From an uncultured Erysipelotrichaceae bacterium (GTDB lineage Bacteria > Bacillota_I > Bacilli_A > Erysipelotrichales > Erysipelotrichaceae), in the NCBI GenBank assembly GCA_902766675.1, contig CACXEN010000226.1:1-29091 (forward strand): DNA of 29,091 nucleotides, given 5' to 3'. Every line of letters starts with the position of its first letter. Position 1 is the stretch's first letter. The translations under genes were made by a program, and so were the position numbers. Below are positions 5,211 to 25,280 of this stretch, in pieces. The notes beneath the pieces are model-generated. The model was not told the DNA's origin and did no database searches. It saw only the letters and a list, made by a program, of their open reading frames with translations.

Positions 5211-5807
5211 ATGATTTGTTGGAAATGTCAAAATGAATGTGGTGATGGCGAGAAGTTTTGTGCGCATTGTGGTGCTGCACTAACACCAAAAATAACAGAA
5301 ACACCCATACCACAAAAAAAGAATACAAATAGATTGCCGATAATACTTATTGGAATTGGAGCTTTGGTATGCCTATTTTTAATAGGAGCATTAATATTAG
5401 GCAATCAAAAAAAAGAAGTCATGCATTGTCAATCTAGTGCAACAGATAGTTTATATAGAGAATATATAGCATATGGTAGCGAAGATAAAATTTCAAAAAT
5501 CGTTATTAAAGTAGTTGAAAGAGATGACAGTGGTTTATTAACAGAAGCTGATTTAGAAGATATTAAGTCATTGTTAGATATAGAAAAGAATAATATCGCA
5601 TCAGAAAAAGGAGTTAGCTTTGATTATTCTGCTAATATGAAGGATAATATTTTAGTAATTGAAGCGACATCAACAATTGATTTAAACAAAGTATCAGATG
5701 ATTATGTAGGATCATATTTCGTGCCATTTGATGTAACATGGAAAGACATGAGTGCAGAAGAGTTTGAATCATATGTTGAATATTGGGAAAATATTACTTG
5801 TGGATAG
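5211..5807 (+). CDS. Zinc-ribbon membrane protein, function unknown
   Basis: Residues 3–20 form a zinc-ribbon (CWKC at 3–6, CAHC at 17–20). A short linker follows, then one membrane helix at about 43–64 and a roughly 130-residue domain that should be extracytoplasmic. That domain (from about MHCQSSATDSLY) has the size and feel of YehR-like DUF1307 lipoproteins, with alternating short strands, but this is a weak resemblance. The ribosome binding site is poor (AGAGAA at about 5202). The next gene, a lipoprotein, starts 13 bp after the stop, so the two are probably cotranscribed. Zinc-ribbon plus single-helix architecture is common in Bacillota proteins of unknown role. Confidence 0.75.
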   Translation: MICWKCQNECGDGEKFCAHCGAALTPKITETPIPQKKNTNRLPIILIGIGALVCLFLIGALILGNQKKEVMHCQSSATDSLYREYIAYGSEDKISKIVIKVVERDDSGLLTEADLEDIKSLLDIEKNNIASEKGVSFDYSANMKDNILVIEATSTIDLNKVSDDYVGSYFVPFDVTWKDMSAEEFESYVEYWENITCG

Positions 5808-5820
5808 AGGGGAAATAACG

Positions 5821-6348
5821 ATGAAAAAATTAATGAAAATCCTTTTAGTTAGTATTCTATCAATTGGTTTCTTTGCGTGTTCGCAAAAGGAAGAAGAAAA
5901 AGTATTGGATGGAGTACAAGGTGATGTATTAAAAACGATGTTTTATTCTTATGGCATCAATGATGCATACTTTCAAGAACAAATCGGAGACACTATTACA
6001 ACAGAAGGTAAACAATTCTTAATCGTTGATGTAACAGTAATAAATGAGAAAGAAGAAAGTGTATTGATGGCAGATACAGATTTCTATTTAACATATGGCG
6101 AAGATGAAAGAGCAGAACCATTATCAGTATATGGCGGAGATCCATTATTAGAAGATGAACTACCAAGAGAATATACTGTTGAAGCCGCAAGTGATAAAAC
6201 TGGAAAATTATTATTCGTTGTGCCATTAGAAGAAACAACATTCTATCTAAAAGCGCAAGATCACTATAAAACAAGTGAAAGCGAAGAGATTGTGGATGGA
6301 GATACATATTCACTCTCATTTACAGTTGAAAAGAAAGAAAGCGAATAA
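5821..6348 (+). CDS. Lipoprotein, DUF4352-like
   Basis: The start at 5821 is chosen because AGAGGGGA lies 8–15 bp upstream and the product then begins with a lipoprotein signal peptide: basic MKKLMK, a hydrophobic core and a lipobox ending at Cys20 (IGFFAC). An in-frame ATG at 5752 would add 23 residues that overlap the previous gene and destroy the signal peptide. The mature 155 residues include QFLIVDVTVIN and a later KLLFVVP segment, resembling DUF4352-type immunoglobulin-like lipoprotein domains, in which a conserved strand reads xFxVVxVxVxN. It probably sits on the outer face of the membrane near the product of the upstream zinc-ribbon gene. The function is unknown. Confidence 0.78.
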   Translation: MKKLMKILLVSILSIGFFACSQKEEEKVLDGVQGDVLKTMFYSYGINDAYFQEQIGDTITTEGKQFLIVDVTVINEKEESVLMADTDFYLTYGEDERAEPLSVYGGDPLLEDELPREYTVEAASDKTGKLLFVVPLEETTFYLKAQDHYKTSESEEIVDGDTYSLSFTVEKKESE

Positions 6349-9598: not shown

Positions 9599-9781
9599 AG
9601 ACGTGGCTAACTGTTAATATCCATCACACACCGAACAGTAGCTATGTAGCTGAAATTATGAATCCTTATGGGCAAAGGAAAACATAAAGTCAGGCAATCT
9701 AAGCGCAAGCTTGTGTCCTCCTCAATTTCACTAGTTAGCGCAACAAAGAGTGCAACAAGAAACGTTGTAACTCTTTTTTTT
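9599..9781 (+). ncRNA. Structured RNA of about 180 nt, family not recognised
   Basis: The RNA has its own promoter (9565–9592) and terminator (9745–9781). A 5' hairpin pairs 9601–9615 with 9634–9647: 14 pairs including two G·U, with A9609 bulged and an 18-nt C/A-rich loop containing CACACACC. A second hairpin pairs 9665–9670 with 9683–9689. A third is AAGC-GCAA-GCTT (9701–9712), with a GNRA tetraloop. An alternative long-range helix, GCTAACT (9606–9612) with AGTTAGC (9733–9739), competes with the first. CCTCCTC at 9717–9723 is unpaired in these models. I compared it from memory with 6S, SRP, tmRNA, RNase P and common riboswitches and saw no match. It could be an sRNA or a leader of the following lipoprotein gene. 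Confidence 0.6.
9745..9781 (+). terminator. Rho-independent terminator of the structured RNA
   Basis: AAAGAGT pairs with ACTCTTT and CAAC with GTTG, with one unpaired base on one side and two on the other, around the loop AAGAAAC. A run of eight or more T residues follows (9773–9781). The stem is strong enough to end the transcript before the lipoprotein gene. Confidence 0.82.
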
Positions 9782-9808
9782 ATATGGTATTTTACTTATA
9801 TGATGGTA

Positions 9809-10561
9809 ATGAAAAAAATAAAAAGAATAGGGGTTATGTTTTTTGCGACACTTTTATTTGTTGGATGTGGAGCAGAAAAGCATATTATATCGAATACACC
9901 GGAATATTATTACTTGCCAGAGTTGTCAATGATGAATGCGAAAAAGACAAAGCAGATATCAACGCTATTTGTCGCAAGTGATGAATCTGATTATGAAACG
10001 GTAGAAGAATTAAAAAATAGTGTACAAGCAAATGCGGATAGATCAGTCATTGAATGTGATTTTAAAAATAGAGCATGTGAAGAATATACATTAGATGCAT
10101 CTGATAATAAGACGGGTAGTGTACCTTATACATATCGTTTTGATCAAAATGAAAAATATATTATTTCAAAAGTTGGCGATAATATATTTAGAGAATTTAT
10201 ATTTGGAAATGGAAAACTTGCAAGTATCAATGATTATGTAGGTGTTGAAAAAACAGCTGACTCTGTAGCATTTGCGAAAAGATCTTTCCACTATGCATCA
10301 AATGGAACGTGTATTAGCAATATTGTAGATACTATCGATAACACAGGAACACCGATTCAATATCGCTACAATTTCCAATATACCGATACGGGAGACTTAT
10401 CTAGAATCAATACAATTGGATTTGATGCAGAAGGAAAAGAGATTATCGTAGGACACATTGACTTCACATTTGAAAATGGATTGATGACTACCGCAACCTA
10501 TTATGCGACAGTAGGAGAAGAAGAAAGAATTGTGTCACACCACGAATATACATACGAATAG
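9809..10561 (+). CDS. Lipoprotein, function unknown
   Basis: Starting at ATG 9809 the product is 250 aa with a typical lipoprotein signal: MKKIKR, a hydrophobic stretch and a lipobox ending at Cys20 (LLFVGCG). ATG at 9800 or 9803 would add only a few residues and cannot be excluded; the ribosome binding site is weak (GATGG at about 9802). A much earlier in-frame ATG at 9668 lies inside the RNA gene and is rejected. The mature part has repeated short Tyr/Phe-rich segments such as PYTYRFDQNEKY, YRYNFQYTDTGDL and DFTFENGLM, which resemble YD-type or MORN-like beta repeats. It should be anchored outside the cell membrane. The gene stands alone between two terminators. Confidence 0.72.
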   Translation: MKKIKRIGVMFFATLLFVGCGAEKHIISNTPEYYYLPELSMMNAKKTKQISTLFVASDESDYETVEELKNSVQANADRSVIECDFKNRACEEYTLDASDNKTGSVPYTYRFDQNEKYIISKVGDNIFREFIFGNGKLASINDYVGVEKTADSVAFAKRSFHYASNGTCISNIVDTIDNTGTPIQYRYNFQYTDTGDLSRINTIGFDAEGKEIIVGHIDFTFENGLMTTATYYATVGEEERIVSHHEYTYE

Positions 10562-22080: not shown

Positions 22081-23016
22081 ATGAAATACAGTAAACAAGT
22101 AAAAGTTAAAGAGATTGTAGAACAGTTTCGCCTAGAACAATTAACAGGAGATGAAAAGGCATTAGAGAGATGGACAGTTGTGCCTGATATGAATCGTCCT
22201 GGTTTTGAACTATGTGGTTTTTTTAGACCAACAGACCCAAGAAGAATTGTGATTATTGGGAATAAAGAAACTGAATTTATTAATGAGATGAGCGAAAAAG
22301 ACCAGAGGGAAAGATTTCCATTATTAACCGATGGTTTAACGCCAGCAATTATTATCACAAAAGGAAATGATCTTCCTCCAATTCTAGAGGAAGTTGCCAA
22401 TGAGAATAACTTTCCTATATTACGTACAAAATTACCAACATATCGTTTTACAGTTGACCTAATTGCTTATTTAGATGAGCGCTTAGCTGCTGAAACAACA
22501 ATGTCTGGTGTATTGATGAATGTTTATGGTAAAGGCGTTCTACTCATGGGTGAAAGCGGTATGGGTAAATCAGAAACTGCCCTAGAACTAATCAACAAAA
22601 AACATGTATTGATTGCGGATGACCGCGTTGATGTACAACATGTTCATAATAATGTCTATGGACATGCACCAGATATCATCAAAGGATTATTAGAAATCCG
22701 TGGTATTGGCATCATTGATGTAGAGAAGATGTTTGGAACATCTGCTCTAGGTGATAGAGCACAAATTGATTTGATTATTAAGCTTGAGACATTTGATGCA
22801 GCGGAAGAATATAACCGTATTGGAGATGAATTAGAACGTTATACAGAAATACTTGGTGTACTTGTACCAACAATCACTTTACCAATTAGTGCTGGTAGAA
22901 ATGTTGGAGTATTAGTAGAATCTGCAGTAACGAATTTCCAACTCCAAGAAAAGGGATTTAGTAGTGCGAATTTAATTCGTCACCGTTTTAGAAATGTAAA
23001 CCAGGAGGAAGAATAA
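22081..23016 (+). CDS. hprK: HPr kinase/phosphorylase
   Basis: HprK phosphorylates and dephosphorylates HPr at Ser46, linking glycolytic state to carbon catabolite control. The 311-aa product has the N-terminal domain, Walker A GESGMGKS (157–164), ADDRVDV at about 180 and the HprK signature LEIRGIGIIDVEKMFG (about 204–219). Three positions differ from the usual Bacillota sequence as I recall it: the P-loop is GES rather than GDS; the HGVLVD segment before it reads SGVLMN at 142–147, so the conserved histidine is absent; and the later PGRN is AGRN. The start ATG 22081 lacks a recognisable ribosome binding site (A-rich leader). It overlaps the fusion gene by 1 bp. Identity is strong. Confidence 0.93.
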   Translation: MKYSKQVKVKEIVEQFRLEQLTGDEKALERWTVVPDMNRPGFELCGFFRPTDPRRIVIIGNKETEFINEMSEKDQRERFPLLTDGLTPAIIITKGNDLPPILEEVANENNFPILRTKLPTYRFTVDLIAYLDERLAAETTMSGVLMNVYGKGVLLMGESGMGKSETALELINKKHVLIADDRVDVQHVHNNVYGHAPDIIKGLLEIRGIGIIDVEKMFGTSALGDRAQIDLIIKLETFDAAEEYNRIGDELERYTEILGVLVPTITLPISAGRNVGVLVESAVTNFQLQEKGFSSANLIRHRFRNVNQEEE

Positions 23017-24362
23017 TGACTTTTTTTCCGAGTGATAGCGTATTATTAACCATCGGTGGATTTTCCTTACATTGGTATGCAGTAACATTGATTGTAGGAA
23101 TTGTGTTGGCATATCTCTATATGGGTACCATTTTAAAAACACATGGATACGAAACAGATGTTGCGGATGAAATATTAATTATGTGTTTGATTGGTGGTTT
23201 AATAGGTGGCCGACTAGTTTGGGTGATTACGCATTTTGAACAATATCAGAGATATTTACCATATATCTTTGCGATAGGAGATGGTGGATATGACATATTG
23301 GGATGCATGCTAGGAATTATCGTAATGGTTCGCTTCTATGTACATCGCAGAAATATGACATTCTTACGTACATTAGATGTTGTATTACCTGCAACAGTAT
23401 TGTTTGCGGCGATTACTAGAATTGGTCGAGCAATTGGAACTACAACTGTATGGTATACAGTATTAATTGATTTGATAGGATTTGGATTATTACACTTTGC
23501 GATTCGTCCATATCATGATGGAGATCGTCGTGGAGATTTAGCTGTTATTTCCGTATTATGGATGGGCTTAAGTAGATTATTAGCACTGATATTCCATTGG
23601 GATACATATGCAGATAAAGTATTACTTGTATGCATATTGGTAGAACTATTAGCAATTGGTGCATATGTAATGATTCATAGACAACGTCCAAAAAAGCCAA
23701 TTATTCTATTCGACTTAGATGGAACAATTATGGATAGTAAAGAAATGGTCATTCATTGTTTCAGTTACTTATTCAAAAAATATAGTGATATTTCTTTATT
23801 TACACCAGAGGTACAACAAGAAGTATTTGGTCCGGAATTAAAAGTTGCTATGGCTAAATTATTTCCAGAACAAGATCCAGATCAATTGGTGGAAGAATAT
23901 CGTAAATACCAATCATCATTTTCTTGGAGTGATGAAGTATCATTATTCCCAAATGTGAAATCAACGTTAGATACGCTTTGGAAATCTGGATATATATTAG
24001 GTATTGTGTCTAGTAGAATGACAGCATCGTGTGAATCATGGATGCGACAATTAGATTTATCTTATTGTTTCCAAACAATATTAGGAAGAGACTTATATGG
24101 AAGTCCAAAACCTAAACCAGATGGAATTATATATGCAGGTGTTCGTTTAAAGAAGGGACATGATTCTTGCATATATATAGGAGATAATGCATCGGATATT
24201 GAAGCGGCCAAAGCTGCAGGTGTATATGCAATTGCATATATGTCAGACATTAAGAAAAAAGATGCATTAATCAAAGCAGAACCAAACAAAATTATCACTG
24301 ACATGGCCGACTTGTTAGAAATAGTACAAGAAGACCATGACTGGTCATACGAAAAGAAGTAG
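23016..24362 (+). CDS. Degenerate Lgt-like membrane domain fused to a PpaX-type HAD phosphatase
   Basis: Residues 1–225 align by eye with prolipoprotein diacylglyceryl transferase: HWYAV (19–23), GGRLVWVI (64–71), RIGRAIG (135–141) and RRGDLAVISVLWMGLSRLL (171–189), with about seven membrane segments. Catalytic positions are altered: the HGG motif is GGYDILG (90–96), GRxGNFxNxE reads TRIGRAIGTTT so the essential Asn and Glu are missing, and the Glu after the late Arg is Ala. Residues 228–448 are a complete HAD phosphatase: DLDGT (233–237), VSSR, a conserved Lys in GSPKPKPDG and IGDNASDIEAAKAAG. In Bacillus, lgt and the pyrophosphatase gene ppaX are separate genes after hprK; here they are one. 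The phosphatase should work; the transferase probably does not. Confidence 0.88.
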   Translation: MTFFPSDSVLLTIGGFSLHWYAVTLIVGIVLAYLYMGTILKTHGYETDVADEILIMCLIGGLIGGRLVWVITHFEQYQRYLPYIFAIGDGGYDILGCMLGIIVMVRFYVHRRNMTFLRTLDVVLPATVLFAAITRIGRAIGTTTVWYTVLIDLIGFGLLHFAIRPYHDGDRRGDLAVISVLWMGLSRLLALIFHWDTYADKVLLVCILVELLAIGAYVMIHRQRPKKPIILFDLDGTIMDSKEMVIHCFSYLFKKYSDISLFTPEVQQEVFGPELKVAMAKLFPEQDPDQLVEEYRKYQSSFSWSDEVSLFPNVKSTLDTLWKSGYILGIVSSRMTASCESWMRQLDLSYCFQTILGRDLYGSPKPKPDGIIYAGVRLKKGHDSCIYIGDNASDIEAAKAAGVYAIAYMSDIKKKDALIKAEPNKIITDMADLLEIVQEDHDWSYEKK

Positions 24363-24413: not shown

Positions 24414-25280
24414 ATGACAAAAGATAAGAAGATTGTATTAGTCAGTGGAATGAGTGGTGCTGGAAAAAGTACTGCAACAAGATTTCTAGAAGACATGGGA
24501 TATCGAGTAATTGATAATTATCCTGTGCAATTAGTAAGTTTTTTGGTTGATATGATTGCGACAACAATCGAGCCACGATACCAATATGTTGCATTATCAA
24601 CAACTGCACAAGACTTCCCAGATTTCGTGCAAGCTTTAAAAGGTGCGGATGTGCAAGTAATTACAGTATTCTTAGACGCAAATGATAGTGTTTTATTATC
24701 TAGATATAAGAGTACAAGAAGATTACATCCATTACTATTAAGTAATGCGGCTAATACTTTAGAAGAAGCTATTGCAGTAGAAAGACAAATGTTCGCAAGA
24801 AATATCAACAGCACATTTGTTACGATCGATACATCTACTTTAACGGAAAAAGAATTCCGCAAAAAAATGGAAACATATTTTGCGATATCTGATACACCTA
24901 CATTTACATTATCATTCATTTCATTTGGATATAAATTTGGTGTACCAATGGATGCCGACTTGATGATTGATGTACGCTTTTTACCAAACCCATATTGGGA
25001 AGAGGACTTAAAGAAATTCACAGGAAATGATGACAATGTATATCACTATGTAATTGATAAACCAGAGACGCAAGAGTTTTTAGAAAGGTTTATTAATTTC
25101 ACAGACTATGCGTTTGCGGAATATGAAAAAGAAGGTAAGAATCACTTTACTGTCGCAATTGGATGTACAGGTGGACAACACCGTTCTGTAGCGATTGCAA
25201 ATTATTTATATGATTACTACAAAACAAAATACCATTGTTATAAGGAACACCGAGAAGAGAAGGAATGGATTAATGAATAA
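24414..25280 (+). CDS. rapZ: RapZ/YvcJ nucleotide-binding protein
   Basis: The 288-aa product has Walker A GMSGAGKS (12–19), the following DMGYRVIDNYP segment and the C-terminal family signature VAIGCTGGQHRSVAIA. RapZ in enterics binds glmZ/glmY RNAs to control glucosamine-6-phosphate synthesis. YvcJ in Bacillus binds nucleotides and has a less defined role, and no GlmY/GlmZ system is expected in Bacillota. GGAGA at about 24402 is the ribosome binding site. Together with yvcK and whiA it makes the conserved three-gene block of Bacillota and Actinobacteria. It overlaps yvcK by 8 bp. Family assignment is confident. Confidence 0.95.
   Translation: MTKDKKIVLVSGMSGAGKSTATRFLEDMGYRVIDNYPVQLVSFLVDMIATTIEPRYQYVALSTTAQDFPDFVQALKGADVQVITVFLDANDSVLLSRYKSTRRLHPLLLSNAANTLEEAIAVERQMFARNINSTFVTIDTSTLTEKEFRKKMETYFAISDTPTFTLSFISFGYKFGVPMDADLMIDVRFLPNPYWEEDLKKFTGNDDNVYHYVIDKPETQEFLERFINFTDYAFAEYEKEGKNHFTVAIGCTGGQHRSVAIANYLYDYYKTKYHCYKEHREEKEWINE

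Follow-up and report, generated by a model that had tools for sequence, protein, structure and literature searches.

A degenerate Lgt-like membrane domain fused to a PpaX-like phosphatase in the hprK cluster of Erysipelotrichaceae, a candidate membrane anchor

Introduction

What keeps an Lgt-fold membrane domain in place when most of its active-site residues are gone and it is joined to a phosphatase encoded right behind hprK? The question is raised by one gene in the window, the whole stretch of 29,091 nucleotides from an uncultured Erysipelotrichaceae bacterium that was analysed here. The answer that we favour, and hold to be reasonably probable, is that the domain is a pseudo-Lgt, retained to anchor a PpaX-like phosphatase, which works for HprK, in the membrane, and that the protein goes back to a fusion of the Lgt-PpaX type. 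Of the two activities that this fusion apparently had, one has probably been lost. The anatomy and history of the fusion are well supported, and transferase activity has very likely disappeared. No published account of an Lgt-HAD fusion or of such a pseudo-Lgt was found in searches of the open-licence PMC literature.

Results

The fusion gene and its locus

The fusion gene (23016..24362, forward strand) is an open reading frame with an ATG start and zero internal stops, and encodes 448 residues. Its Lgt-like membrane domain comprises residues 9–223 (23040..23684, forward), of which residues 9–197 match Pfam LGT (PF01790) with 81.4 bits (cut-off 24.9); its HAD-IA phosphatase domain comprises residues 229–437 (23700..24326, forward), of which residues 230–407 match HAD_2 (PF13419) with 143.4 bits (cut-off 23.8). 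Upstream lies hprK, for HPr kinase/phosphorylase (22081..23016, forward; Pfam Hpr_kinase_N and Hpr_kinase_C), whose stop codon has one base in common with the ATG of the fusion (junction TAATG). Downstream lies rapZ (24414..25280, forward; Pfam matches to both RapZ domains, N and C). Within the portion of the window examined, the genes uvrA, ggt-like, two chrA-like, hprK, fusion, rapZ, yvcK-like and whiA-like form a co-directional run; hprK and rapZ were named from Pfam matches and the others from their translations.

The same architecture was present in 26 of the 60 genomes surveyed for the genus, in one of them (G023) divided between two contigs; of the 25 unsplit loci, 24 are not the window's own, and hprK was upstream in all 24. 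A preliminary description of the window had proposed a single 448-residue Lgt-fold plus HAD protein in the hprK operon and a survey of related genomes for the same fusion; the reading frame, the Pfam matches and the 26 genomes bear it out. The window genome (G000) is a 92% complete assembly, in which no HPr gene (PF00381) was found. Since 58 of the 60 genus genomes have an HPr gene, we read this as assembly incompleteness.

The Lgt half has lost a loop and most active-site residues

Seven membrane helices are predicted for the fusion (residues 20–42, 47–72, 94–112, 116–139, 145–163, 174–192 and 203–222). A VIA structure comparison of the whole-protein model listed HAD chains alone, so the Lgt domain was modelled separately; its predicted structure has the seven-helix Lgt fold that had been suspected for the N-terminal part. 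In an alignment with E. coli Lgt, the HWY motif (Y26 = Y21), R143 (= R135) and R239 (= R187) are kept. H103 is replaced by Leu, N146 by Arg138, Y235 by Met, E243 by Leu and R246 by His, and E151 and G154 are deleted. The GRxGNFxNxE signature is thus broken at N146 = Arg138, and its remainder and the head domain are missing; a five-residue turn (residues 140–144; 23433..23447, forward) joins helices 4 and 5 at this site. Compared with E. coli Lgt (PDB 5azb), the fusion therefore lacks the end of the signature motif, the head domain, N146, E151, Y235, E243 and R246, and has a C-terminal HAD domain in addition. The alignment confirms the calls made earlier by eye (HWY and two arginines kept; the HGG histidine, the Asn and Glu of the signature and the late Glu gone), which had missed that the absence of Asn and Glu reflects a deletion and not substitution alone. 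The TIGR00544 Lgt equivalog model gave 62.6 bits for the fusion, below its cut-off of 118.9; two fusions with an intact Lgt half scored 203.9 and 214.0, and the free-standing Lgt of the window genome 105.3, also below the cut-off.

For a residue census, Lgt domains of 82 intact fusions, 52 free cysteine-type Lgts and 27 window-type fusions (26 of the window's genus plus L127 of a different one) were aligned to E. coli Lgt. The partial proteins L098, L142 and L150 were counted for their Lgt part; set aside were L002 and L003 (duplicates of L034 and L035), L174, and L054 and L060–L063 (no Lgt part), and the two halves in G023 are not among the 27. All 82 intact fusions keep Y26, R73, R143, N146, N149, E151, G154, R239, E243 and R246, and the H103 column holds H in 39, Q in 38 and Y in 5. 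In the window-type proteins N146 is replaced in 27/27 (by R in 21), the E151 and G154 columns are empty in 26/27, Y235 and E243 are lost in 27/27, and R246 is kept in 3/27. Retention is 25/27 for R143 and 19/27 for both Y26 and R239; R73 and D129 are retained in 27/27 and G99 in 26/27. The interval separating the R143 column from that of E202 spans 11–13 residues in the 27 window-type proteins, versus 43–46 in the 82 intact fusions and 39–42 in the 52 free Lgts.

Which of these losses are informative can be judged from work on E. coli Lgt. According to Legood et al. (PMC13251419), Y26, H103, R143, N146, G154 and R239 are essential, and the mutants R73A, G98A, G104A, D129A, E151A and E243A are functional in a strain without Lpp; inactive mutants at Y26, H103, R143 and E151 are reported by Mao et al. 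(PMC4728403), to whom the weight given to Y235 and R246 also goes back (as cited in PMC13251419). The residues that persist in the degenerate clade (R73, D129) thus include ones dispensable to E. coli Lgt. When five Firmicutes Lgts were tried in E. coli, growth was not rescued by any of them (PMC13251419). The missing histidine, taken before as a sign of a dead enzyme, proved uninformative, because H103 varies among the intact fusions and is a tyrosine in Firmicutes Lgts (PMC13251419). The losses of E151 and E243 prove little, since E. coli without Lpp tolerates either substitution on its own. The case for inactivity therefore rests on the lost loop, N146, G154, Y235 and R246. We consider it very improbable that the fused Lgt half works as a transferase; the retention of Y26, R143 and R239 in the window protein speaks against loss of activity.

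Intact fusions are widespread in the family

The family was sampled with 96 genomes, each at least 90% complete. An intact-Lgt fusion was found in 82, a window-type fusion in 5, a free cysteine-type Lgt only in 5 (G062, G093, G112, G133, G149) and no confident Lgt in 4. The last four (G073, G107, G134 and G150, >90% complete) also had no hprK match, a possible dual loss or missing sequence. All intact loci checked (30/30) lie after uvrA-hprK. The family-wide fusion (Erysipelothrix sp. HDW6A, Longicatena sp., Erysipelotrichaceae bacterium) shares domain order and place with that of the window, and differs in its complete Lgt active site (82/82) and in that most of these genomes have no second Lgt. 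Because the version with an intact active site is widespread, the fusion was probably not built from an already dead scaffold; the preliminary description had not taken this spread into account. In a sample of 59 genomes from the order, the one other family drawn had a free-standing Lgt in 30/30 genomes (open frame 265–274 residues), following hprK in 8/8 examined; as far as sampled, the Lgt-HAD fusion therefore looks specific to the window's family.

Degenerate fusions occur together with a second Lgt. A free Lgt was present in 26/26 fusion-bearing genus genomes and was of the cysteine type in all 15 that were fetched, the typing leaving out the other 11; further LGT matches outside the typing were a 221-residue one in G083, weak ones in G075 and G151, and extra ones in G002, G004, G012, G040 and G048. 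In the family sample, a free cysteine-type Lgt of the window's kind was found in 5/5 genomes with a window-type fusion versus 4/82 with an intact fusion (Fisher p 3.4e-6), an association that represents two events at most because a single genus contributes four of the five genomes. The four intact genomes (G109, G110, G135, G151) look like the stage preceding loss. Five further intact genomes carry a different cysteine-type homologue (L129–L133). An LGT control list that omits B. subtilis was not relied on.

The fifth window-type genome, G105, belongs to another genus and also has a free cysteine-type Lgt (L125). Its fusion (L127) looks independently inactivated: it has degenerated in its own way, and it sits among the intact fusions on both the Lgt and the HprK tree. 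A separate origin is likely from these sequences, rather than certain, because both trees flag a long branch.

Among genus genomes without the fusion, extra divergent LGT-family matches were seen at G012:C60:32276-32923, G040:C25:35465-36058 and G004:C96:30243-30860, in open frames of 298, 233 and 232 residues, respectively.

The free Lgt is of a cysteine type

The only other LGT (PF01790) match in the window genome is G000:C216:9661-10374 (L001), of the cysteine type (GRIGCYFAGCCYG); the gene just before it is presumably truA-like. The positions of H103, N146 and E151 are Y, C and C, which rules out a canonical Lgt. The same holds for all free Lgts analysed, with N146C and E151C in 52/52 and H103 in none, and they keep Y26, R143, Y235, R239, E243 and R246 in 52/52, as does, unlike the fused domain, the free Lgt of the window genome. 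It had been argued that a real lgt must exist elsewhere. A second PF01790 gene does exist, but it is altered at the same His, Asn and Glu positions on which the fused domain had been judged, so by that reasoning it would count as dead too.

Replacements N146C and E151C/D are known in distant Lgts (PMC13251419), a pattern that the free Lgt of the window genome shares with its N146C and E151C. The MSMEG_5408 protein of M. smegmatis combines Y26H with N146C, and its activity is called presumed low in the same paper; the free Lgt of the window genome differs in keeping Y26.

Lipoprotein-like signals were located in the window by a regular-expression scan, in line with the two noticed before: one in the open frame 5752-6346 (...SIGFFAC; the protein carries DUF4352) and one in 9662-10559 (...TLLFVGC; no Pfam match for the protein). 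An lspA match is also present in the genome. In the window genome and in G058 and G085, each of the latter two assembled in one contig, a cysteine-type Lgt (N146C, E151C) is the sole Lgt match besides the fusion. Should these bacteria modify their lipoproteins, the cysteine-type Lgt would have to be a working enzyme.

The HAD half and its link with HprK

All four HAD motifs are present, as had been noted: motif I DLDGT (residues 233–237; 23712..23726), motif II SSR (332–334; 24009..24017), motif III KPKP (365–368; 24108..24119) and motif IV GDNASD (389–394; 24180..24197), all on the forward strand. Among the window-type proteins DxDGT is found in 27/27, [KR]PxP in 26/27 and GDxxxD in 27/27. 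Among the 82 intact-Lgt fusions, the strict patterns for motifs III and IV were matched in 62 and 77, and the DxDGT pattern was unmatched in six, of which three have DFDQT, one has DLDGV and two, from genus g32, are truly ruined.

The top NCBIfam HAD model for the fusion is PpaX (NF009804), with 127.5 bits and thus below the cut-off of 218. PpaX was likewise the top, sub-cut-off HAD model in 7/7 proteins scanned across architectures. In a control search the cut-off was passed in 0/14 genomes, B. subtilis included, so failure to reach it is weak evidence. We use the label PpaX-like rather than PpaX because the equivalog cut-off was not reached, and in this form the earlier claim of an intact PpaX-type phosphatase in the hprK cluster is supported. 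B. subtilis PpaX, which we take to be YvoE, shares with the window's HAD domain the HAD family, the hprK cluster and the best NCBIfam match; the window's domain differs in being fused to an Lgt-fold domain and in scoring below the PpaX cut-off. The order in B. subtilis is hprK-lgt-yvoD-yvoE-yvoF (PMC12345273); the phosphorylase activity of HprK yields pyrophosphate, and YvoE has been proposed to be a pyrophosphatase and to favour HPr-Ser-P dephosphorylation (PMC2937029, citing Mijakovic 2002).

The phosphatase stays with HprK once the Lgt part is absent. Among the 34 fusion-less genus genomes, hprK was found in 30, and in 28 of these a HAD homologue without Lgt follows directly; the exceptions are L196, where the fetched stretch stops 141 bases past the hprK match, and L190, with another gene at that place. 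In G026, G029 and G036 (L204, L203 and L205), HprK and the PpaX-like HAD form one open frame of 572–581 codons, that of L205 scoring 317 bits with TIGR00679 and 169 bits with PpaX. These HprK-HAD fusions point to a coupling of HPr-Ser-P dephosphorylation with pyrophosphate removal. Among the loci with a free Lgt only, the fetched stretch of L210–L212 (G093, G149, G133) gave no match to a HAD or Lgt homologue behind hprK, where the gene in L211 and L212 is, we presume, thioredoxin-reductase-like; in L213 and L214 (G112, G062) a HAD homologue lies downstream of hprK. A family-II pyrophosphatase might moreover be encoded in the window genome, by a gene with a DHHA2 domain, which counts against the preferred reading.

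The reading that the HAD half acts on another substrate (phosphoglycolate or a sugar phosphate, for example), unrelated to HprK, draws on the difficulty of reading HAD specificity from sequence, on the missed PpaX cut-off and on the many non-PpaX phosphatases among the Foldseek and VIA matches of the model. We regard it as unlikely given PpaX as top model in all seven proteins, the persistent position after hprK and the HprK fusion in three genomes.

Descent and selection of the degenerate domain

In a tree of Lgt domains (48 of 167 rows), the degenerate domains cluster with the intact fusions (SH-aLRT 95) and not with the free Lgts. In a tree of HprK, which included 10 of the 30 intact loci and in which the outgroup is not one clean side of a branch, the 26 degenerate-Lgt rows of the genus fall in one group, with four HAD-only rows (L176–L179) nested inside (supports around them mostly 81–92); other HAD-only loci lie outside this group, and the HprK-HAD rows form one clade.

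The degenerate Lgt domain is under purifying selection, which is relaxed. In the seven pairs nearest by HAD synonymous difference, dN/dS was 0.06–0.14 for the Lgt part (dS 0.55–1.28) and 0.03–0.10 for the HAD part; at these values the domain is being maintained. In distant window-type pairs the Lgt part gave 0.2–0.7, with dS close to saturation. The median dN(Lgt)/dN(HAD) was 1.57 over 351 window-type pairs versus 0.76 over 3320 intact pairs, the pairs being non-independent; relative to the HAD part, the degenerate Lgt thus evolves about twice as fast as the Lgt of intact fusions. Set A1 combined the window protein with 34 database proteins out of the 70 found. Residues R66, W69, D121, R172 and G173 are invariant in 25 aligned domains that are 25–54% identical to that of the window. 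Sites new in the degenerate clade (26 rows, listed without L127) include R138 in the N146 column and D152 in the E206 column, both with a frequency of 81%, as well as W69, Y80, Y83, F85 and D89 in arm-2.

Discussion

We propose the following course of events. The ancestor would be the family-wide Lgt-PpaX-type fusion, with a probably active transferase in the membrane and a C-terminal cytoplasmic pyrophosphatase. In the window genome, lipoprotein modification is, or could be, in the hands of a separate cysteine-type Lgt. Gone from the fused Lgt are the catalytic loop, the head domain and most residues of the active site, and its seven-helix body persists under purifying selection. This body probably serves to keep the HAD phosphatase on the inner side of the membrane, a side that we assume from the topology of E. 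coli Lgt, and the anchored phosphatase would remove the pyrophosphate made by the HprK of the same cluster. For a conserved seven-helix domain without active site, anchoring is the simplest role to propose, and the tethering suggested in the preliminary description is compatible with the seven-helix model. Against an anchor speak the relaxed constraint on the Lgt domain and its dispensability, as HAD-only loci nest inside the degenerate group on the HprK tree and others lie outside it.

The same nesting, together with the faster evolution of the Lgt part (1.57 vs 0.76), would be expected if the Lgt half were a functionless, decaying relic, kept because the start codon of the HAD lies upstream and heading for deletion, as has happened in L176–L179. 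Slow decay accounts for part of the data, and the rival explanations are partly compatible with each other. As a full account it is doubtful in view of the low dN/dS in the nearest pairs, the persistence of seven hydrophobic helices, the five invariant residues, and the clade-specific conservation of R138, D152, W69 and D89.

The newly conserved residues hint at something beyond a plain anchor. The membrane domain might bind a lipid or other ligand and regulate the phosphatase, so that the state of the membrane would bear on HprK control, a function compatible with anchoring. Arm-2 is conserved at W69, Y77, Y80, Y83, F85, D89, G90 and G91, partly new in the degenerate clade, and Y26 and arm-2 touch the first phosphatidylglycerol site of E. 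coli Lgt (PMC4728403). A lipid-binding regulatory platform, with a new arm-2, an R138-D152 pair replacing Asn146/Glu206, control over the pyrophosphatase and a link from membrane state to the carbon-source control driven by HprK, is a rather improbable extension; ligand binding and domain coupling would both have to be assumed, and sister species live without the domain. Regulation in general is given an equally small share.

Our preferred reading takes the transferase to be lost. Continued lipid transfer by the fused domain, through an altered mechanism or with another substrate, has in its favour R135 (= R143) and R187 (= R239), which the window protein retains, as do 25 and 19, respectively, of the 27 window-type proteins, the tolerance of E151A and E243A in E. 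coli without Lpp, and the different substrates or mechanisms proposed, in PMC13251419, for homologues without even R143 and R239. Given the deletion of the head domain and of the end of the signature motif, the loss of N146, Y235 and E243 throughout, the retention of Y26 and R239 in only 19/27 each, and a free Lgt in all 26 fusion-bearing genus genomes, we give it little credence. An assembly error or chimera, for which the 251 contigs of the window assembly might be cited, is ruled out for practical purposes by the recurrence in 26/60 genus genomes, including the one-contig G058, by the one-contig G085, and by 64 of 70 database proteins with both Pfam domains.

Enzyme displacement with a retained pseudoenzyme is not a new kind of system; the present case is a clean and testable one. 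At one locus an evolutionary series can be followed, from the intact Lgt-phosphatase fusion via the degenerate-Lgt fusion to the phosphatase alone and the phosphatase fused to HprK. The series has a mirror case, an intact Lgt with a ruined phosphatase, in genus g32 (G091, G127; L207:2440-3534 and L206), the only two of the 82 intact fusions with a ruined HAD. Here the Lgt active-site residues are kept (with G145A), and the Lgt is followed by a HAD remnant of about 100 residues without DxDGT; in L207, Pfam sees LGT only.
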